A model generated the notes under the pieces. That model searched no databases, was not told the origin of the DNA, and saw only the letters and a list, made by a program, of their open reading frames with translations. A stretch of DNA of 51,884 nt from Herbiconiux sp. (GTDB lineage Bacteria; Actinomycetota; Actinomycetes; Actinomycetales; Microbacteriaceae), in NCBI RefSeq assembly GCF_023264895.1, contig NZ_JAHFUY010000001.1:1-51884 (forward strand). Reading direction: 5' to 3'. Of this stretch, positions 6,343 through 17,840 are shown one piece after another (the stretch's first letter is position 1; each line of letters begins with the position of its first letter). The position numbers were made by a program, and so were the translations under genes.

Positions 6343-6993
6343 ATGTCCCTGAATCCGACCCTGCCGTCCGCGCCCGCGGCCCCGGCCCTGACCCCGGAAG
6401 ACCTCGGCGTGGGCGCACGCTTCACGATCGCTGTGATGGACGGCGACTTCGCCCGCATCATCGTCGACGCCCTCGCCGCCGCCGACTCCACCGACCTCGT
6501 GGTCGTCACCGATCCGGTCAGCACCCTCGTGCGCGGATCGGAGCAGCGCGTGCTCGAGTACCTCTCCGACGTCATCGCGGGCGCCTCCCGCGGCGGCCAC
6601 CACGTCACCGCCTCGCTGCTGCTCTCCCGCGGCTGCCCCGGCGAGGTCACCTGCAGCACCACCCCCGGCCTCCTGGCCGAGGCGGCCGCTGTGCCCGTGC
6701 TGCCCGCCACCGGCATCCGCGCCTCGGCGCACTGGTCGCTCTACCCGCTCGACGACACGGGCCGCCCGGGTGAGACCCCCGACCACCTCCGCGACATCTA
6801 CGAGGCCATCGACTACGCCAAGGAGCTCGGCGCCTACGTGCGCGGCGAGCACTACGCCACCCTGCTCGAGGGCGACCTCGCCGACGTGCTGGGCGCCGTG
6901 GCGGCCGGCTGGGTGCTCGTGGGGCGGAGCGTGCAGCACGTCACGAGCCACGCCACCCTCTCCATCGCGAGCCCCTCGGAGGCGGCACGATGA
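6343..6993 (+). CDS. ykoF: YkoF family thiamine/HMP-binding protein
   Basis: A 216-residue protein of the YkoF family, which binds thiamine or its hydroxymethylpyrimidine moiety and belongs to the riboswitch-controlled ykoFEDC group. The two-repeat form is visible: ARFTIAVMDGDFARIIVDAL in the first half and IRASAHWSLYPLD in the second. A GAAAGG Shine-Dalgarno lies 9 bases before the ATG. The stop overlaps the ykoE start (ATGA). The role is inferred from the family, the riboswitch and the uptake genes that follow. Confidence 0.9.
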   Translation: MSLNPTLPSAPAAPALTPEDLGVGARFTIAVMDGDFARIIVDALAAADSTDLVVVTDPVSTLVRGSEQRVLEYLSDVIAGASRGGHHVTASLLLSRGCPGEVTCSTTPGLLAEAAAVPVLPATGIRASAHWSLYPLDDTGRPGETPDHLRDIYEAIDYAKELGAYVRGEHYATLLEGDLADVLGAVAAGWVLVGRSVQHVTSHATLSIASPSEAAR

Positions 6994-7598
6994 CCGCCAC
7001 GGCCACCACCCGCCGCACCTCGCTGTTCGCCTGGCAGCTGAAGGACATCATGCTGCTCGTCGTGCTCGGAGCGGTCTTCGGGTTCCTCTACTGGGCCCTC
7101 GTGCAGGGCTGGATCGCGCTCTCGGTCGCCACCGGCCCCTTCGGCGACCTCACGCAGCACGTGCTGCTCGGCGGCTGGCTGCTCGTGGCACCCATCGCGA
7201 TCGCGATCATCCGGCGGCCGTTCGCGGGCATCCTCGCCGAGATCATCGCCTCCGTCATCGAGGTCGTCTTCCTCGGCTCGGCGGTCGGCCCGCTGCTGCT
7301 CGTCGCGGCCGCCCTCCAGGGGGCAGGCAGCGAGCTGCCGTTCGCCCTCATGCGCTACCGGCGCTACGGCTGGCTCGTCTACGCGGTGTCGGGCGCGCTC
7401 GGCGCAGGCCTCGTGTTCTTCTACTCGGCCTTCCGGTCGGGGTGGTACGGCACCGATCTGCTGCTCCTTCGCCTCGTGATCCAGGTGGTCTCGGGCATCG
7501 TGATCGGCGGGCTGCTCGCCAAGGTGATCGTCGACGGGCTGGCCCGCACCGGGGTCGTCGACAACTTCGCCATCGGCCGGGCCCGCCTTGGCGCCTGA
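6990..7598 (+). CDS. ykoE: YkoE, substrate-binding S component of thiamine/HMP ECF transporter
   Basis: A 202-residue membrane protein with about six helices, beginning WQLKDIMLLVVLGAVFGFLYW, typical of YkoE S components. It binds thiamine or its pyrimidine precursor in the membrane and docks on the energising module made by ykoD and ykoC. The ATG overlaps the ykoF stop. The next gene starts 7 bp after its stop. Confidence 0.92.
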   Translation: MTATATTRRTSLFAWQLKDIMLLVVLGAVFGFLYWALVQGWIALSVATGPFGDLTQHVLLGGWLLVAPIAIAIIRRPFAGILAEIIASVIEVVFLGSAVGPLLLVAAALQGAGSELPFALMRYRRYGWLVYAVSGALGAGLVFFYSAFRSGWYGTDLLLLRLVIQVVSGIVIGGLLAKVIVDGLARTGVVDNFAIGRARLGA

Positions 7599-7605
7599 AG
7601 GCGTG

Positions 7606-9579
7606 ATGTCTGACACGGATCGCGCGGCGGCGCGCACGGTCGACGTCACCGTGCGCGCCCCGGGTTCGCCTCGCCCGCTGCTTGCCGGGGTGTCGCTCGA
7701 GCTGGCACCGGGTGAGCGGATGCTGGTGCTCGGCCCCTCGGGATCCGGCAAGTCGAGCCTCGTCAACGTGCTCACCGGGGTCATCCCCTTCTCGCAGAAC
7801 CTGTCGGTCGAGGGCGCGGTGCTGCTCGGCGGGGCCGACGTGAGCGAGCTGCCCGTGGTGGAGCGGGCGCGACGGGTGGGCGCGGTCGCTCAGGATCCGG
7901 CGGCCGCGGTGTGCCTCGCCCGGGTGGACGACGAGATGGCGCTGCCGCTGGAGAACCACGGGGTGGACCCGTCGGCGATCTCGGGGCGGATCGATGACGC
8001 GCTCGGCCTCGTGGGCGCCGGCGGGCTCCGGGAGCGGGCGACATCGGCGCTCTCGGGTGGGGAGCTGCAGCGGGTGGCGATGGCCGCGGCGCTCGCCGGG
8101 TTGAGTGAGGGCGGTGGGATCGGCCTGGCCGGCCCGACCGGGTCGCCTGCGGACGGTGGGGTCGCCGGCGCCCGAGGGACTGGCGCGCTCGGCGGTGGCG
8201 GTGGCGGTGGGGGCGCGTCGGCGGTGCTGCTGCTCGACGAGCCGACGTCGATGCTCGATCCGGCGGGTGTCCGTGCGGTGCGCGGGGCAGTCGCGCGCGT
8301 GGCGGAGCGCGGCGAGGTGGCCGTGCTGCTCGTCGAGCATCGCCTGGACGAGTTCGCCGGGGAGGCCGGCGCGCGCGGGCTGCCGGAGAAGGCCCTCGTG
8401 CTCGACGGCTCGGGCGGGGTGGTGGCGTGCGGTCCGACCGTGGAGGTGCTGGCGCAGAATGCGCAGCGGCTGCATGATGCGGGCTGCTGGCTGCCGCTCG
8501 AGACCGAGCTGCTCGCGATCACCGGGCGACCAGGGGGCCTCGACTCGGCGGAGGTGGGGGAGTGGCTGCGCGGCTGGCTGCGGATGCGGCCGGTCGCGAC
8601 CGCGGCACGGTCATCGCCGGTAGACGGCCCAGGTGAGGGTGATGTCGAGGCGCCGGACGTGGCGTCGGTCGCGAACCACGATGACCGCGATCCGTTGCTC
8701 TCTGCGCGGTCGCTCGTGGTGGGGCGGCCGGCTCCCGGCGCACGCCGATCACGGGGACGGCGCGCGCCGGTCGATGCGGTGCTCGCGGGTGTGGATCTCG
8801 AGCTGCCTCCCGGCGAGGTCGTGGCGCTGCTGGGCGCCAACGGATCGGGGAAGACGAGCCTGCTGCTCACCCTCGCCGGGCTCCTGCCTGCGGCCGGGGG
8901 AGCGGTCGCGGGGGCGCGGCCGAGCATGGTCTTCCAGAACCCCGAGCTGCAGTTCCTGGGGCACCGGGTGCGCGACGAGATCGGGATCGGCGTCGCCGGC
9001 AGCCGCGACGAGGTGGCTGAGATCGTCGACCGCCAGCTCGCCGTGCACCGGCTCGAGCACGTCGCCGATCGCGACCCCTACCGCCTCTCGGGCGGGGAAA
9101 AGCGGCGGCTGAGTCTCGCCGCCATGCTCGCCCACGCCGACCGCCCTGTGCTGCTCGCCGACGAGCCTGCGTTCGGGCTCGACCGTCGTGACACGGTCGC
9201 CACCGCCGACGTCTTCCGCACCGAGGCTGCCCGCGGGCGGGCCGTGGTGTTCTCCAGCCACGACCTGCGGTTCGTCGCGACCGTCGCCGACCGCGTCATC
9301 GTCCTCGCCGACGGCGGGATCGCGGCCGACGGTCCGACCGTCACGGTGCTCCGGAACGCGGACGTCCTGCGCCGCGCCGGCCTCGAGCTGCCGCCCCTCG
9401 TGGCCTGGCTGCTCGCCGAGACCGCCCCGGCCGACCCCACCACCCCAGCGCGGGATGTGGGCGACGTCGACGCCGTACGCGTGCTCCGCTGGCTCTACGC
9501 GACCGGCGCGCATCCGGAGGCCACCGCACCGCCGCTGCCCACGGCCGCCGGCACGTCGCTCGAGGAGGCGGCACGATGA
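7606..9579 (+). CDS. ykoD: YkoD, duplicated ABC ATPase of thiamine/HMP ECF transporter
   Basis: A 657-residue protein with two ABC domains that drive thiamine/HMP uptake. Domain 1 has Walker A GPSGSGKSS (residues 43-51), signature LSGGELQR (149-156) and Walker B VLLLDEP (207-213). Domain 2 has GANGSGKTS, LSGGEKRR and VLLADEP. The start was set at ATG 7606, preceded by GAAGG; a TTG frame extension overlaps ykoE and is less likely. An unusual glycine-rich insert of about 35-40 residues lies between signature and Walker B of domain 1, encoded by a GGTGGC-type repeat near 8190-8216. The stop overlaps ykoC (ATGA). Confidence 0.92.
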   Translation: MSDTDRAAARTVDVTVRAPGSPRPLLAGVSLELAPGERMLVLGPSGSGKSSLVNVLTGVIPFSQNLSVEGAVLLGGADVSELPVVERARRVGAVAQDPAAAVCLARVDDEMALPLENHGVDPSAISGRIDDALGLVGAGGLRERATSALSGGELQRVAMAAALAGLSEGGGIGLAGPTGSPADGGVAGARGTGALGGGGGGGGASAVLLLDEPTSMLDPAGVRAVRGAVARVAERGEVAVLLVEHRLDEFAGEAGARGLPEKALVLDGSGGVVACGPTVEVLAQNAQRLHDAGCWLPLETELLAITGRPGGLDSAEVGEWLRGWLRMRPVATAARSSPVDGPGEGDVEAPDVASVANHDDRDPLLSARSLVVGRPAPGARRSRGRRAPVDAVLAGVDLELPPGEVVALLGANGSGKTSLLLTLAGLLPAAGGAVAGARPSMVFQNPELQFLGHRVRDEIGIGVAGSRDEVAEIVDRQLAVHRLEHVADRDPYRLSGGEKRRLSLAAMLAHADRPVLLADEPAFGLDRRDTVATADVFRTEAARGRAVVFSSHDLRFVATVADRVIVLADGGIAADGPTVTVLRNADVLRRAGLELPPLVAWLLAETAPADPTTPARDVGDVDAVRVLRWLYATGAHPEATAPPLPTAAGTSLEEAAR

Positions 9580-10403
9580 TCCTGAACCCCGCCCAGGTGC
9601 CCGACTCGCCGCTCGCCCGCCGCAACCCCACCGTGAAGCTCGCGGTGCTGTTCCTCGCCTCGGTGGCGCTGCTGTTCGTGCTCGACCCCGTCACGCCGGC
9701 GGTGATCTACCTCGCCGGGTTCATCGGCGCCGCCGTGGGCGGGCGCATCCCGCTGCGCACCCTGCTGGCCGTGCAGCTGCCCTTCTTCGCCTTCGCGGCG
9801 GGCGTGCTCACCATCAACGTGCTGAGCCGGCCGGGCACCGCGCTGTGGGAGGAGGGCCCGGTGCGCCTCACCGTCGAAGGGCTCGTCGTCGGCGCGGCGC
9901 TGGCCGGACGCACGCTCGCCATCGGCATCCTCTCGGTCGGCTTCCTGCTCACCACCGACAGCCTCGCGCTCATGACGAGCCTGCACCAGAACGCCCGCCT
10001 CGGCGCCCGCCCGAGCTACGCGCTCATGGCCGGCCACCGGCTGCTGCAGCAGCTGCCGGGGGAGTGGGCGGTCATCCGCGCCGCCCAGTCGGTGCGCGCA
10101 CCGCTCCGGCGTGCCGGCACCGTACGCCAGGGCACCGTTCGCCAGGGCACCGTACGCCGAGGGCCCGGGGCGTTCGGCCGGGCGGGCTTCGCCCTGCTCG
10201 TGCAGTCCATCCGCCGGGGCGAGCGGATGGCGCAGTCGCTCGAGTCGCGCGGACTCGGCCTCACGCCCCGCACGGTGTGGCGACCGGTGCACGTGACCTC
10301 CGTCGACCTCGCGTTCGGAGCAGTCGTGCTCGCCGGCCTCGCGACCGTGATCGGGGTCGCCGGCGCGCTCGGGCTGCTCCGGGGCCCGGGAGCTCTGTTC
10401 TGA
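9576..10403 (+). CDS. ykoC: YkoC, transmembrane T component of thiamine/HMP ECF transporter
   Basis: A 275-residue integral membrane protein of the EcfT/CbiQ type. Several hydrophobic helices precede the cytoplasmic coupling segment near RGERMAQSLESRGLG, which matches the Ala-Arg-Gly coupling motif of the family. It links the YkoD ATPases to the YkoE S component. A short tandem repeat (consensus Arg-Gln-Gly-Thr-Val) sits in the coupling loop, near 10125-10160. The stop overlaps the next gene (TGATG). Confidence 0.9.
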   Translation: MILNPAQVPDSPLARRNPTVKLAVLFLASVALLFVLDPVTPAVIYLAGFIGAAVGGRIPLRTLLAVQLPFFAFAAGVLTINVLSRPGTALWEEGPVRLTVEGLVVGAALAGRTLAIGILSVGFLLTTDSLALMTSLHQNARLGARPSYALMAGHRLLQQLPGEWAVIRAAQSVRAPLRRAGTVRQGTVRQGTVRRGPGAFGRAGFALLVQSIRRGERMAQSLESRGLGLTPRTVWRPVHVTSVDLAFGAVVLAGLATVIGVAGALGLLRGPGALF

Positions 10404-11728
10404 TGACGCCGAAGCAGGCCCGACTCGTGGCGCTCGTCAACCCGCCGACGAGCCAGTACGCCGCCAACTGGAGCAACCCGCTGAGCCGCTCCGACTGGCT
10501 GCGCGGCACCTTCTACGCCGACCTCGGCCGGCTGCTCGAGCGGGGCCGGTTCGACATGGTGTTCCTCGCCGACGCGCTCGCCGTGCCCGAGGACGCCGAC
10601 GGCGAGATCGCCACGACCCTCCGCACCGGCGGCAAGGGCGCGATCTACCTCGACCCGATCGTGGGCCTCTCGCACATCGCCGCCGCGACCACCCATCTCG
10701 GGCTCGGGGCGACCGTGTCGACGACGTTCCAGCATCCGTTCACCATCGCCCGCAGCCTGCTCAGCCTCGACCAGCTCTCGGGAGGGCGGGTGGCCTGGAA
10801 CATCGTCACCTCCACGACGGATGCGGAGGCCCGCAACCACGGGCTCCCCGCCATCCCCGACAAGGCCGCCCGCTACGACCGCGCCGACGAGGTGGTGCAG
10901 GCGGTGATCGACCTCTGGGAGGGGTGGGAGCCGGATGCGCTCCGGCTCGACCCGATCGCTGGGGTCTTCGCCGATCCCGTCCGGGTGCGCCGCGCACCAC
11001 GGCGGGGCGGCGACCTGCCCTACGCCCCGGGGCCGCTGGCGATGCCGCGGAGCCCGCAGAACCGCCCCGTGCTCATGCAGGCCGGGGCCTCCCCGCGGGG
11101 ACTCGAATTCGCCGCGCGCTGGGCCGAGGTCGTCTTCGCCACGGGCGGCTCGCCGGAGGCGCACCGGACTCAGCGGGCGGCCTTGAAGGAGCGGTGCCGG
11201 CAGCTCGGGCGGGATCCGGAATCACTCCTCTACCTGCCGGCCATCCAGCCCGTGCTCGGATCCTCGGCGTCGGACGCCCGCCGCAGGCTCGCGTCGCTCG
11301 AGGAGGCGCTGGATCCCGATGCGGTGCTCGTGGCGCTCGGCCGGCTGCTGCACGCCCGGCCGCACGAGCTCGATCCGGATGCCCCCGCCGTGCCCCTGAT
11401 CGAGGCCCACCGGGGCGCGACGGGCAGCGACGGCTTCGAACGGTCGATGCTGCACGCGGCCGAGAGCGAGTCGCTCACCGTGCGGGGGCTCGCCTTCCGC
11501 CAGGCGCTCAGCCAGTTCAATCTGCAGCCCGTCGGCACGCCGGCGGCGGTGGCCGACGAGCTCGAGCACCTCCTCGACAGCGGCGCGGCCGACGGCTTCG
11601 TGGTGATGCCGGCGCTCTACCTCAGCTCGTTCGACGACGTCGTGAACGGTCTCGTGCCCGAGCTGCAGCGGCGCGAGCGGCTCCGCGAGGAGTACGAGCA
11701 CGCGACGCTTCGGGGGAACCTCGCCTGA
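10403..11728 (+). CDS. NtaA/SnaA/DszA-family flavin-dependent monooxygenase
   Basis: A 441-residue luciferase-like FMNH2-dependent monooxygenase of the nitrilotriacetate/pristinamycin/dibenzothiophene-sulfone group. Recognisable features are WSNPLSRSDWLRGTFYADLGRLLERGRFDMVFLAD at the N terminus (quoted in part), the GRVAWNIVTST segment and VLMQAGASPRGLEFAARWAEVVF. The start is the ATG in a TGATG overlap with ykoC, so it belongs to the thiamine-regulated operon. It needs reduced flavin from a separate reductase, not seen here. The substrate may be a damaged or bulky thiamine-related compound, by context only. Confidence 0.85.
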   Translation: MTPKQARLVALVNPPTSQYAANWSNPLSRSDWLRGTFYADLGRLLERGRFDMVFLADALAVPEDADGEIATTLRTGGKGAIYLDPIVGLSHIAAATTHLGLGATVSTTFQHPFTIARSLLSLDQLSGGRVAWNIVTSTTDAEARNHGLPAIPDKAARYDRADEVVQAVIDLWEGWEPDALRLDPIAGVFADPVRVRRAPRRGGDLPYAPGPLAMPRSPQNRPVLMQAGASPRGLEFAARWAEVVFATGGSPEAHRTQRAALKERCRQLGRDPESLLYLPAIQPVLGSSASDARRRLASLEEALDPDAVLVALGRLLHARPHELDPDAPAVPLIEAHRGATGSDGFERSMLHAAESESLTVRGLAFRQALSQFNLQPVGTPAAVADELEHLLDSGAADGFVVMPALYLSSFDDVVNGLVPELQRRERLREEYEHATLRGNLA

Positions 11729-12818: not shown

Positions 12819-12878
12819 TAGAATGGGATCACTTCAGATCGGGCCTGGATTTGGGCTCGCGACGTTCGTCGAAACGTC
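12819..12878 (+). promoter_or_regulatory. Candidate promoter and operator-like palindrome upstream of fbiC
   Basis: TAGAAT at 12819-12824 resembles a -10 box. Downstream, GACGTT-N6-AACGTC at 12861-12878 is a perfect 6+6 inverted repeat in the leader region between the divergent starts. No clear -35 is visible. Either a repressor site or a leader hairpin is possible. Confidence 0.35.
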
Positions 12879-12909: not shown

Positions 12910-15378
12910 GTGACCTCCTCCGAGTTCTCCCGTTCTTTCACCGACCTCGTTCCGCATCCCTCCGCGCTCTCCGCGCGCGGGGCTCTCGACCGCATCGAGG
13001 GTGGTGAGCCGATCGCCCTGCCCACCGCCACTGCTCTGCTGGGCGCCCGTGGCGACGACCTCGACCGGCTGCTCGCCCGGGCCTCCGCCATCCGCGACGA
13101 CGGTCTCCGGCGGGCCGGCCGCCCCGGGGTCATCACCTACTCCAAGAAGGTGTTCCTGCCGATCACCCGGCTGTGCCAGGATCGCTGCCACTACTGCATC
13201 TTCGTGGACACCCCCGGCGGGCTCGCGAAGCACGGCATCACCACCTTCATGGAGCCCGACGAGATCATCTCGATCGCCCAGGTGGGCGCCGGAATGGGCT
13301 GCAAGGAGGCTCTCTTCACCCTCGGCGACCGCCCCGAGAAGCGCTGGCCCGCCGCCCGCAGCTGGCTCGCCGAGCACGGCTACGGCTCCACGCTGGAGTA
13401 CGTGGGCGCGATGGCGCAGCGCGTGCTCGACGAGACCGGCCTCATCCCGCACCTCAACCCGGGCGTGATGTCGTGGAACGAGATGCAGCGGCTGCGCCCG
13501 TGGGCGGGCTCGATGGGGATGATGCTCGAGACCACCGCCACCCGGCTGTGGTCGGAGCCGGGAGGCGCCCACTTCGGCTCGCCCGACAAGGATCCGGCGC
13601 TGCGGCTGCGGGTGATCGAGGATGCCGGGCGCTCCCGCATCCCGTTCACCTCCGGAGTGCTGCTCGGCATCGGCGAGAACCACGCCGAGCGCGCCGAGGC
13701 GCTGTTCGCGCTGCGCGACCTGCACGGCCGGTTCGGGCACCTGCAGGAGACCATCGTGCAGAACTTCCGCTCCAAGCCCCGAACGGCCATGCAGAACGAC
13801 CCCGACCTCGGGCTCGACGAGTACATCGCGGCCGTCGCCACGGCCCGCATCGTCATGGGTCCGGATGCCACGGTGCAGGCGCCGCCGAACCTCACCGACC
13901 TCCCGGAGCTGGGGCTGCTGCTGCGGGCCGGCATCAACGACTGGGGCGGCATCAGCCCGCTCACCGCCGACCACGTCAACCCCGAGCGGCCCTGGCCCGA
14001 CATCGACCTGCTCGCCGAGCTCACCAGCCGTGGTGGCTTCGCCCTGAAGGAGCGGCTCACCGCCTACCCCGAGTACCTCGCCGACGCCGACCGCTGGCTC
14101 GACCCGAACATCACCCCGGCGCTGCAGGCGCTCATGGATCCGGAGACGCTGCTCGCCGACGAGTCGGCACGGGTGGCGCCGCGCCGCACGGCGGACGTGC
14201 CCGCCGACGAGTCGGCTGCCGACGTGCCCGCCGGAGCCGGTCGTGCCCACCGAGCCGCCCACGTCGACGACGGCCTCCGAGCCGCTCTGCTCTCCGCGGC
14301 GCGGGGATCCGGAGACGCGATCACCGACGACCAGGCCGTCCTCCTGCTGGGTGCTCGCGGCGGAGCCCTCGACGAACTCGCCGGCATCGCGGATGCGGCG
14401 CGCGAGGCGAGCGGCGACCGGGCCGTCACGTACGTGGTCAACCGCAACGTCGACACGAGCCTGCTGACGCTGGGCGGCGAGCACGACGCCGATGACCCCG
14501 GGGCGCCCACCCCCGCGCTCACCCTCGACATGGTGCAGCAGCTCGCCGCCGAGGCCGCCCAGCTCGGCGCGAGCGAGCTCTGCCTGCAGGGCCGACCCGC
14601 GGCGCACCTGCCCGGCACCGTCTACCTCGACGTCGTGCGCGCCATCCGCGAGGCCGCACCCGAGCTCAGCATCCACGGCTTCCGCCCCACCGAGCTGCAG
14701 GACGGGGCGCGCCGCACCGGTCGCAGCCTGCCGCAGTTCCTCAGCGAGCTCCGCGAGGCCGGCCTCAGCAGCGTGCCCGGCACGGCCGCCGTGGTGCTCG
14801 ACGACGGCGTGCGCGCTGCCTTCAGTCAGGGGCAGCTGCCCCCGGCCGCCGAGTGGATCGCGACCGTCGAGGCCGCGCACCGTGCCGGCCTCGGTTCCAC
14901 CTCGACCCTCGTCTTCGGCCACGTCGAGACCCCCGCCCAGATCGTGGCGCACCTGCGGGCCCTCGCCGCCCTGCAGGAGCGCACGGGCGGCTTCACCGAG
15001 TTCATCCCGATGCCGTTCGTGCCGGGCGACGCGCCGCGAGCGCTGGCCGCCCTGGCGGGCCGTGGGCCCTCGCCCGAGGCCTCACGCGCCGTCATCGCGG
15101 TCTCCCGCCTGCTGCTGGCCGGCCGCATCGACCACGTGCAGGCCGCCTGGACCAAGCTCGGCCTCGGCACCACCGGCCAGGTGCTGCGTGGCGGCGCCGA
15201 CGACATCGGCGGGGTGCTCCTCGACGGCGCGCTCTGGCCCGAGGCGGGGCCCGAGGCGCGCCTCACCCTCACCGATGCCGACGTCGAGTCGCTGGCCCGC
15301 GCATCCGGTCGCCCCGCCCTCCGCCGCGACACCGCCTACCGGCCCATCGCGGAGGCACTCGTCGTGAGCGGGCGTTGA
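12910..15378 (+). CDS. fbiC: FbiC-like FO synthase (CofG-CofH fusion) with degenerate CofH half
   Basis: An 822-residue fusion like mycobacterial FbiC, which makes the F420 chromophore FO from tyrosine and a ribitylaminouracil with two radical-SAM centres. The N-terminal CofG half is intact: cysteines 89, 93 and 96 in LCQDRCHYC, then [28 protein letters not shown] and NPERPWP. The linker near residues 415-450 is Ala/Asp-rich. The C-terminal CofH half keeps the barrel ([41 protein letters not shown]), but the cluster-binding cysteine segment after VNRN is replaced by [15 protein letters not shown] with no cysteine. The frame is clean across this. The GTG start was chosen by alignment to the family; upstream codons are open but unrelated. 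Confidence 0.85.
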
Positions 15379-16925
15379 TGACGACGCCGTCGCTGTCGCA
15401 GCAGCCGGCCCACCCGGCTCCGGATGCCTCGCCGCGCGAGGTCGACACCATCGTGGTGGGGGCCGGGATCGCGGGCATCGCCGCCGCCGCCCAGCTGCGG
15501 CGGCGAGGCATCACCGACGTGCTGGTGGTGGAGCGTGCCCACGACGTGGGCGGAACGTGGCGCGACAACGTCTACCCGGGTGTCGCCAGCGACATCCCCG
15601 CGCACCTCTACTCCTATTCGTTCCGGCCGAACCCGGGCTGGAGCCGGCGGTTCGCGCCCGGGGCCGAGATTCAGGAGTACCTGCGGGGCGTGGTGCGCGA
15701 CGAGGGTCTGGCCCCGCAGCTGCTGCTCGGGACCGACTTCACCGACATTTCCTGGGACGACGACCGGCGGCGCTGGCGGCTGGCGACCAGCCGGGGCGAG
15801 CTCGTCTGCCGTGTACTGATCCTCGCGGCGGGCCGGCTCTCCGAGCCCGTGCTCCCGCAGCTGCCCGGCCGGGAGTCGTTCACCGGCGCCGTGATGCACA
15901 GCAGCGCCTGGGTGCCGGGGCTGGATCTCGCGGGCGCGCGGGTCGGCGTCGTCGGCACCGGGGCATCCGCTGTTCAGCTGGTGCCGCACCTGGCGGGGGT
16001 GGCCGCCGGGGTGACCGTGTTCCAGCGCACGGCGCCGTGGGTGGTGCCGCGGGCGGATGCGCCGGTCCCGGCGGCCGTCCGGGCGACGTTCGCGCGCGAT
16101 CCGGGGGCCATGCACGCGCAGCGGGAGTCGCTCTTCCGCGAGTTCGAGGCCGGGCACGCCGCGCGGGTCGCCGAGGGGCCCGAGCGGGAGGCGCTGCGGC
16201 AGGTGGCGCTCGGTCACCTCGCGGCCCAGGTGCCCGACGCGTCGCTCCGCGCCCGCCTCACCCCCGACTACGAGATCGGCTGCAAGCGCATCCTGCTCTC
16301 CGACGACTGGTACCCCGCCATCGCGTCGGGGGCGGTCACGTTGGAGCCCTCGGCCATCGTGGCGCTCGAGGGCAACCACGCCGTGGCCGCCTCGGGTGCC
16401 CGGCACGAGGTCGACGCCCTCGTGTTCGCCACCGGTTTCGCCGCGACCCGCCCGCCGTTCGCCCAGCACGTGCGGGGGCGCGGCGGCCGGCTGCTCGCCG
16501 AGCACTGGGCCGAGGGGATGACGGCGTACGCGTCGATCCTGATGGCCGGCTTCCCGAACCTGATGGTGCTCGACGGGCCGAATGCGGCGCTCGGCCACAA
16601 CTCGGCGTTCGCCATGATCGAGGCCCAGGCGGAGCTCGCCGGATCCCTGGCCACGCGGATGCGCACCGAGGGCGCCGAGGTGATCGAAGCCTCGCCCGCG
16701 GCCGAGCAGGCCTGGACCGACCAGCTCGACGCCGCCAGCCGCGGAACCGTCTGGCTGAGCGGCTGCCGCTCCTGGTACGTCGACGACCGCAGCAGCCGCC
16801 TCACCCTGCTCTGGCCCGGCACCGCCACCACCTTCCGCGCCGCCCTCAGGGCAGTCGCCGAGCAGCCCTTGCCCCTCCCCGACGCTGACGTCGCCACGAA
16901 CGAGCTGATGTCACTGCTCGGCTGA
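15378..16925 (+). CDS. Flavin-containing/Baeyer-Villiger-type monooxygenase
   Basis: A 515-residue FAD- and NADPH-dependent oxygenase. FAD-binding GAGIAG is at residues 28-33, the BVMO/FMO fingerprint FTGAVMHSSAW (F-x-G-x3-H-x3-W) at 168-178, and the NADP-binding GTGASA at 193-198. The GGTWRDNVYPGVASDIP segment is typical of Baeyer-Villiger enzymes. It starts in a TGATG overlap with fbiC, so the two are co-translated. It could insert oxygen beside a ketone; the substrate is unknown. No link to F420 chemistry is known for this family, so the coupling may be incidental. Confidence 0.88.
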   Translation: MTTPSLSQQPAHPAPDASPREVDTIVVGAGIAGIAAAAQLRRRGITDVLVVERAHDVGGTWRDNVYPGVASDIPAHLYSYSFRPNPGWSRRFAPGAEIQEYLRGVVRDEGLAPQLLLGTDFTDISWDDDRRRWRLATSRGELVCRVLILAAGRLSEPVLPQLPGRESFTGAVMHSSAWVPGLDLAGARVGVVGTGASAVQLVPHLAGVAAGVTVFQRTAPWVVPRADAPVPAAVRATFARDPGAMHAQRESLFREFEAGHAARVAEGPEREALRQVALGHLAAQVPDASLRARLTPDYEIGCKRILLSDDWYPAIASGAVTLEPSAIVALEGNHAVAASGARHEVDALVFATGFAATRPPFAQHVRGRGGRLLAEHWAEGMTAYASILMAGFPNLMVLDGPNAALGHNSAFAMIEAQAELAGSLATRMRTEGAEVIEASPAAEQAWTDQLDAASRGTVWLSGCRSWYVDDRSSRLTLLWPGTATTFRAALRAVAEQPLPLPDADVATNELMSLLG

Positions 16926-17053: not shown

Positions 17054-17230
17054 ATGCCGACCAGGAAGCCGATCAGCCCGAAGCGACTGCGCGAGAGTGT
17101 GGTGAAGTCGACGATGAAGACCATGAGCATCGAAGGACGGCTGCCTCCGCACGAGCCGAGACCGAGCACCGCGAGCAAAGACTCTTTGGTGGCGAACTTC
17201 AAGTCCACGTCGCGTCAGATGATTGGCTGA
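17054..17230 (+). CDS. Short antitoxin of a Fic module (VbhA-like)
   Basis: A 58-residue basic protein just before fic. It contains TMSIEG (residues 23-28), fitting the Fic inhibitory motif [S/T]-x3-E-[G/N], whose glutamate blocks ATP in the Fic active site. Start chosen at ATG 17054 because GGAGG lies 7 bases upstream. Its stop overlaps the TTG start of fic by 8 bp, as in class I Fic modules where the inhibitor is a separate protein. The family is inferred from motif and position. Confidence 0.7.
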   Translation: MPTRKPISPKRLRESVVKSTMKTMSIEGRLPPHEPRPSTASKDSLVANFKSTSRQMIG

Positions 17231-17840
17231 GCTCTCTGCCGAGTACGGGGCCACTCCCGTCGATCCGGATGACGAGGTGGCCTTCCTGCCGGGCATCGGC
17301 TTCGAGAACAGAGCTGCCCTGTACGAGGCGGAGGCACAGGCGCTCAGCGATCTGCGATACCAGCTCTACGACGCCGTGGCGTCCGGAGAGCTGACCGCTG
17401 CGGACATCACGGGTCGTTTCAACCTGGAGAAGATGCACCAGCTGGCCAACCAGCAGATCTGGCAGTGGGCCGGCCGATTCCGCGATCGTGAGTTGAACGT
17501 CGGTGCTCCGCCGGAGTACATCCGAGAGCGGCTCTACGGCGCACTGGAGAACCTCACGTGGCAGGTGGAGAACGCCGACGCCATCGGATTCTCGCCCGAG
17601 TTGCTCGCGATGAGCGCGCACCACCAGCTCGTCAAGATCCACCCCTTCGTCGACGGGAACGGGCGGATCACGCGGCTTTTCGCCGATGTCCTCCTGCTGG
17701 CGCTGACGGGGGATCGCGTCTTCGACTGGTCGGTCGAACCGTCCGACTACGTCGCTGCGGTGAGGCGGGCGGATGCGTCTGGAGACATGGCCGAGCTGCT
17801 CGAGATGGTCGGAGTCGAGTACCTGACCGACGAGGTCTGA
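17223..17840 (+). CDS. Fic domain protein (AMP-transferase toxin)
   Basis: A 205-residue Fic protein. The core motif HPFVDGNGR is complete at residues 140-148, giving the catalytic histidine and the ATP-phosphate-binding residues. The upstream helix region WQWAGRFRDRELNVG is typical of Fic toxins that AMPylate targets such as topoisomerases. It probably starts at TTG 17223, overlapping the antitoxin stop; no better start lies before the conserved region. It is convergent with the uvrA-like gene. Confidence 0.88.
   Translation: MAELSAEYGATPVDPDDEVAFLPGIGFENRAALYEAEAQALSDLRYQLYDAVASGELTAADITGRFNLEKMHQLANQQIWQWAGRFRDRELNVGAPPEYIRERLYGALENLTWQVENADAIGFSPELLAMSAHHQLVKIHPFVDGNGRITRLFADVLLLALTGDRVFDWSVEPSDYVAAVRRADASGDMAELLEMVGVEYLTDEV

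Follow-up and report, generated by a model that had tools for sequence, protein, structure and literature searches.

The aminofutalosine synthase MqnE, which takes part in menaquinone synthesis, is a radical SAM enzyme, and HemF is an oxygen-dependent stand-in for the radical SAM enzyme HemN. In FO synthase, the closest described system to the locus analyzed here, the CofG and CofH halves may be joined in one protein, FbiC. FO, the F420 precursor, is made by two SAM-radical domains in all studied producers, according to a review (PMC8498797). In the same review, CofH is described as making a radical cut of the Cα–Cβ bond of tyrosine and adding the p-hydroxybenzyl radical to the diaminouracil, after which the adduct is oxidized (PMC8498797). 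Judged from its listings, our literature search, with subscription papers outside it, gave no paper that describes a cysteine-less CofH or a Baeyer-Villiger monooxygenase (BVMO) in FO synthesis, and a passage on Arthrobacter aflatoxin tests (PMC3034190) carries no information on FO synthesis.

The FbiC described here is encoded in a 51,884-nucleotide stretch of Herbiconiux sp. DNA (the window). It resembles FbiC and the CofG–CofH FO synthases in its CofG half, the fold of its CofH half, its domain order and the F420 pathway genes in its genome, but it differs in that the CofH half (CofH') lacks both CxxxCxxC and GGIxP, falls below the CofH and CofGH family cut-offs, and has a BVMO gene alongside. 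We propose that CofH' and this BVMO probably replace the radical SAM CofH in making FO, through a step that depends on O2 and involves no radical.

A cysteine-less CofH half and its BVMO partner

The CofG half retains its C-x3-C-x2-C motif (CQDRCHYC), as the initial annotation had stated, and scores 461.6 bits against NCBIfam CofG TIGR03550, above the cut-off of 213.35. The CofH half reaches 315.1 bits against NCBIfam CofH TIGR03551 (cut-off 374.1) and the whole protein 968 bits against NCBIfam CofGH NF006687 (cut-off 1018), so that both fall below. Pfam Radical_SAM has a single match, to residues 82–263 of an 820-aa query, which is the CofG half; the Pfam scan of FbiC gave no Radical_SAM match in the CofH half, where CofH_C is still matched at residues 692–806. 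Canonical FbiC reads NFTNVCYTGCRFCAF after VNRN. In CofH' the CxxxCxxC motif is absent at this site, and the first cysteine past VNRNV is that of LCLQG. Both the missing cluster-binding cysteines and the lack of a frameshift had been read correctly from the DNA in that annotation, the reading frame being open up to the stop at 15378.

The loss extends well beyond this strain. A search with FbiC residues 360–820 gave 701 homologues; among the best 120, which are by design the window's nearest relatives, CxxxCxxC is absent from the CofH half in 111 and present in 9. Because the loss is common to 111 of these 120, it is not a sequencing error, and an assembly artefact, which had been considered at the outset, is ruled out. 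Where a source is named among these best 120 of 701, it belongs in most cases to Microbacteriaceae or Micrococcaceae and in some to Cellulomonas; the closest named homologue comes from Herbiconiux sp. CPCC 203407. Of the best 80 of 579 loci in named genomes, 19 are cysteine-less, among them those of Curtobacterium, Humibacter, Arthrobacter, Kineococcus rubinsiae, Rathayibacter, Promicromonospora, Gordonia jinhuaensis, Actinomycetospora and Cryobacterium. Another of the 19 is the actinobacterial-looking cassette of a MAG filed as Acidobacteriaceae (L021), probably through a binning error.

The gene that follows fbiC, overlooked in the initial annotation, is identified by its sequence and its predicted fold as encoding a type I BVMO. 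Among solved proteins it comes closest to the cyclohexanone, steroid and phenylacetone monooxygenases, and its model (pLDDT 89.5) has only BVMO-type enzymes among its 50 best PDB matches. The protein carries GGTWRDNVYPGVASD and FTGAVMHSSAW, so that both type I fingerprints, which we take to be [AG]GxWxxxx[FY]P[GM]xxxD and FxGxxxHxxxW, are present. Across the 39 unique cysteine-less loci the long fingerprint is found in 36, the short one in 37 and both in 35, and D72 and R304, presumably equivalent to the active-site D66 and R337 of phenylacetone monooxygenase (PAMO), are invariant in the 34 sequences (of 39 loci) that could be aligned. The enzyme is thus like the known type I BVMOs (cyclohexanone, phenylacetone and steroid monooxygenases) in sequence, both fingerprints, the Asp and Arg, and predicted fold; it is unlike them in sharing just 22–30% identity with the 50 best structural matches and in being linked to CofH'. 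Coordinates are collected in Table 1.

Table 1. Positions of the fbiC–BVMO features within the window
Feature	Position	Strand	Remarks
FbiC	12910-15378	+	822-aa form; this start was chosen, and the ATG further upstream at 12823 is open as well
CofG half of FbiC	12910..14121	+	Radical SAM motif CQDRCHYC
Cysteine-less CofH half (CofH')	14206..15378	+	TIGR03551 match 14320-15348
Lost cluster loop site in CofH'	14437..14530	+	VNRNV 14437-14451, cysteine-less stretch from 14452
TGATG junction	15376..15380	+	FbiC stop and BVMO ATG share one base
Type I BVMO (predicted)	15378..16925	+	515 aa; sequence and predicted fold

Linkage, phylogeny and selection

In 39 of 39 unique loci with the cysteine-less CofH, a BVMO gene follows it on the same strand, −18 to 1454 bp downstream, and in none of 73 canonical loci was one found by tblastn over 200 bits across the whole locus on both strands. 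The downstream flank of the canonical loci reached 1.5 kb or more in 68 cases and 3 kb or more in 61. Selection of both sets of loci was based on CofH/FbiC or CofD and took no account of the BVMO. Seven additional cysteine-less loci from a class-level survey also have the BVMO; they were fetched around BVMO matches and are therefore a weaker test of linkage, although six of the seven genomes had already been flagged by low CofH scores. Five fragmentary genomes with low CofH scores (G127, G133, G170, G186 and G188) do not appear in the class-level BVMO list.

The same association holds at the level of genomes. Among 100 Microbacteriaceae genomes, 16 are cysteine-less and 6 canonical; with up to 15 BVMO candidates scored per genome, a BVMO at 50% identity or more occurs in 15 of the 16, and the sixteenth (G056) has an adjacent BVMO gene at 44%. 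None of the other 84 reaches 50%, the best being 46%. BVMO relatives at 45–50% identity do exist without CofH', with one at 50% in a class-level genome (G167), and those at 45–47% belong to a looser group with different neighbors. Over 37 loci, pairwise distances correlate more closely between CofH' and the BVMO (r 0.77) than between CofG and the BVMO (r 0.51) or CofG and CofH' (r 0.57).

In a tree of the CofH half computed with the cysteine loop removed (39 cysteine-less rows with 38 canonical ones, namely 8 from Microbacteriaceae and 30 taken at random from 65 others), all 39 cysteine-less rows fall on one side of a single branch (SH-aLRT 100). The CofG tree requires three changes and has no single cysteine-less group, but the test does not reject such a group (p-AU 0.077). 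Gene architecture varies: in some Actinomycetospora, Kineococcus and Gordonia loci the cysteine-less CofH is a stand-alone gene, and in the Gordonia-type loci L050 and L232 CofH' and the BVMO are adjacent separate genes followed by CofG. An Arthrobacter wenxiniae protein of 1022 aa (P0060) is a cysteine-less FbiC fused with CofC and nucleotidyltransferase domains.

When the window is compared with four relatives, dN/dS is 0.16, 0.34, 0.28 and 0.32 for CofH', similar to the 0.19, 0.23, 0.35 and 0.29 of the BVMO, with 0.10–0.23 for CofG. These values mark purifying selection, so CofH' is not decaying; taken with the 111 of 120 homologues and the single CofH' branch, they show the cysteine loss in the CofH half to be a real trait, neither sequencing error nor decay. 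They also bear on the idea of a CofH half that survives only as a dead relic, in strains that import FO or the CofH product. Importing strains may exist: of the 45 CofD-positive genomes among the 100 from Microbacteriaceae (G000–G099), 23 are without CofG and CofH, and such strains, with CofD or CofE and neither FO synthase half, may take up FO from their neighbors. The relic reading nevertheless has to accommodate purifying selection on CofH', a single CofH' group across many genera, a BVMO in every one of the 39 loci, and stand-alone CofH' genes retained without CofG fusion, and we regard it as very unlikely. With CofD so common in the absence of CofG and CofH, F420 genes alone are no proof of local FO synthesis. 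Among CofE-positive Microbacteriaceae genomes, 33 of 55 also have neither CofG nor CofH.

Gene replacement within Herbiconiux

The cassette replaces canonical fbiC within the genus Herbiconiux itself. Nine of 16 genomes have the canonical FbiC, seven have the cysteine-less cassette and none has both, and a BVMO at 52% identity or more is found in exactly those seven, the best in the other nine being 47%. One genome with a low score (G106) was considered as a further cysteine-less case and rejected, its canonical FbiC being split across two contigs. The canonical gene order is cofD, deaminase, fbiC, glpK; in two cysteine-less genomes (G105 and G101) the deaminase and glpK genes are present and fbiC is missing from between them. 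A third (G108) has in this slot (L218:5790-7136) a 449-aa CofG alone, which is 74% identical to the canonical protein and groups with canonical CofG (support 96), and carries a stand-alone CofH' with the BVMO on another contig (L216:5732-9242). In this natural half-swap, CofH' and the BVMO appear to serve a CofG from the canonical lineage, an argument for their delivering the intermediate that CofH makes. With both versions in one genus, and with the half-swap strain, Herbiconiux lends itself to a direct test of the question.

In the window's own genome, contig C131 ends past cofD and C132 starts before glpK, leaving the fbiC slot in the gap; three other genomes (G104, G107 and G111) are also non-contiguous there. 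As this assembly is 92% complete, a canonical CofH in its unassembled part could in principle do the work. Its assembled part gives one CofH match only, the other six cysteine-less Herbiconiux genomes (95–99% complete) yielded no second CofH, and in G105 and G101 the slot is visible and empty of fbiC, so we assign this explanation the slightest probability of those considered. Across the 100 Microbacteriaceae genomes, second CofH matches fall on the CofG half, with the exception of a weak one in G070 (2.6e-6). The initial annotation had offered two readings of the CofH half: a new role, which is compatible with the evidence presented here, and a CofH supplied elsewhere, which as a second CofH gene finds no support in the single match of the strain's own assembly.

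The remainder of the F420 pathway is retained. CofE and the F420-dependent G6PDH family occur in 16 of 16 Herbiconiux genomes, with one G6PDH-family copy beside CofE in the window's own genome, which also has CofD and CofC. CofD occurs in 22 of 22 CofG-bearing Microbacteriaceae genomes (the copy in G099 is a fragment only), and in G028, G056 and G057 the CofH'-containing FbiC lies within 3 kb of it.

One genome, G190 (L229 and L230), has a canonical FbiC and a cysteine-less cassette together, and its canonical FbiC is not a pseudogene, the stop falling at the end of the reading frame. Such coexistence would fit a cassette that made a deazaflavin other than FO, for a purpose of its own. This is difficult to reconcile with Herbiconiux, where the cassette takes the place of fbiC while CofE and F420-dependent enzymes remain and where the CofG of the half-swap strain is of canonical lineage, or with the A. 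wenxiniae protein, in which cysteine-less FbiC and CofC domains are united; we consider a separate deazaflavin improbable. Taken on sequence evidence, CofH' and the BVMO are a real, conserved and widely spread two-gene variant, predicted to serve FO synthesis.

Remodeled CofH' and proposed chemistry

Near-invariant columns of CofH were defined as those conserved at 95% or more in 73 canonical sequences, and as kept when at least 80% of the 39 cysteine-less ones agree. Of 107 such columns, 57 are kept, 22 are intermediate and 28 are lost, so the earlier description of the remaining CofH barrel as conserved holds for the first group and fails for the last. The lost columns comprise all three cysteines together with the loop that carries them, G110, I111 and P113 of GGIxP, and E176, K190, W225 and S293, among others. 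New residues have become fixed or nearly so: S140 of canonical CofH is Arg in 39 of 39 cysteine-less sequences, E320 is Gly in 97% and R324 is Pro in 95%. Judged from the alignment, the losses form a coherent change.

The CofH' model, predicted from an alignment of 36 of 39 sequences, shows a confident TIM barrel (pLDDT 89.4) of the MqnE/CofH type. Within this barrel, confidence is low at the former cluster loop, near residues 91–100 (block mean 57). MqnE is its best solved structural match (TM 0.75–0.76; PDB 6xi9 and 6xig) and thus the nearest solved fold, although CofH', unlike MqnE, is without the cluster motif.

For the step assigned to CofH' and the BVMO we infer a substrate, a chemistry and a product as follows, and we put this particular route forward tentatively, as a possibility somewhat short of even. 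The predicted route would combine an O2-dependent, radical-free cleavage of the tyrosine skeleton with an ionic C-alkylation by CofH'. Using O2 and NADPH, the BVMO would act on a 4-hydroxyphenyl ketone derived from tyrosine, for which 4-hydroxyphenylpyruvate or a derivative is a candidate, and insert an oxygen atom into the bond that joins its benzylic carbon to the carbonyl. The bond broken in this way would be the Cα–Cβ bond, as in the radical scission by CofH. A 4-hydroxybenzyl ester readily yields a p-quinone methide, and the ester formed here could do so by losing its carboxylate. CofH', in which the barrel is kept and the cluster and SAM sites are gone, would hold 5-amino-6-ribitylaminouracil with C5 of the uracil placed for attack on the quinone methide. 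The adduct would be the CofH product, equal to it in oxidation level, and ring closure to FO would then fall to the CofG half, still an intact radical enzyme. There is precedent for esters of this kind: PAMO converts phenylacetone to benzyl acetate (PMC3404926), and PAMO or TmCHMO converts phenylacetones to acetate esters, which an esterase then cleaves (PMC10840651). As with HemF and HemN, an O2-using enzyme would take over a radical SAM step; what sets this case apart is that a homologue of the radical enzyme, without the cluster, stays on as a partner.

It is also possible that the BVMO alone supplies a 4-hydroxybenzyl or other oxidized donor and that CofH' is a scaffold joining the BVMO, donor and CofG, with coupling to the diaminouracil occurring spontaneously or through CofG. 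The loss of every cluster column and most SAM-site columns would be consistent with such a role, as would the Gordonia-type loci, where the genes for CofH' and the BVMO lie side by side with that for CofG next. The 57 kept columns and the new invariants, R140 for example, exceed what a scaffold needs, and we consider a purely structural CofH' unlikely.

If replacement of the radical CofH by CofH' and the BVMO is correct, the rule of two radical SAM domains would not hold in a large share of Microbacteriaceae or in parts of other actinobacterial families, and a radical SAM fold would have been turned to non-radical chemistry. It would also provide an oxygen-tolerant first F420 step, of value since F420 production is now limited by oxygen-sensitive enzymes, and many genes named CofG or FO synthase would carry the wrong chemistry in their annotation.

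In 14 of the 39 loci the gap between CofH' and the BVMO exceeds 300 bp, and gap ORFs scanned in 6 of these 14 scored above the Pfam α/β-hydrolase cut-off in 5. With gaps of this size in only 14 of 39 loci, an α/β-hydrolase is ruled out as an obligate third member; an esterase beside the BVMO is compatible with the ester route, though not universal. In Agreia, the BVMO proteins P0172 and P0174 have an N-terminal stretch of ~180 residues that resembles a degenerate α/β-hydrolase. Among 31 conserved neighbor families, partly annotated, no tyrosine-processing gene was recognized, and the frames that recur in 19 other cysteine-less loci are only FbiC, the BVMO and their overlapping or antisense shadows.

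Upstream of fbiC, at 6990-11728 (+ strand), the window has ECF-type transporter genes (a PF09819 permease, paired ABC ATPases and a CbiQ-like gene) and then a gene for an NtaA/DmoA-family FMN monooxygenase. The transporter, NtaA/DmoA and MsnO8 genes were each considered as parts of the system and rejected, not being conserved beside FbiC; MsnO8 recurs only in L212 and L213. The initial annotation had suggested that two luciferase-like genes in the window could need F420. Their best matches, both above cut-off, are to the FMN-dependent NtaA/DmoA family and the MsnO8 family, and they therefore give no support for F420 use. Past the BVMO gene, at 17223-17840 (+ strand), the window encodes a Fic-domain protein whose similarity to 'mobile mystery protein B' stays below the cut-off (83.9 against 124.4 bits).
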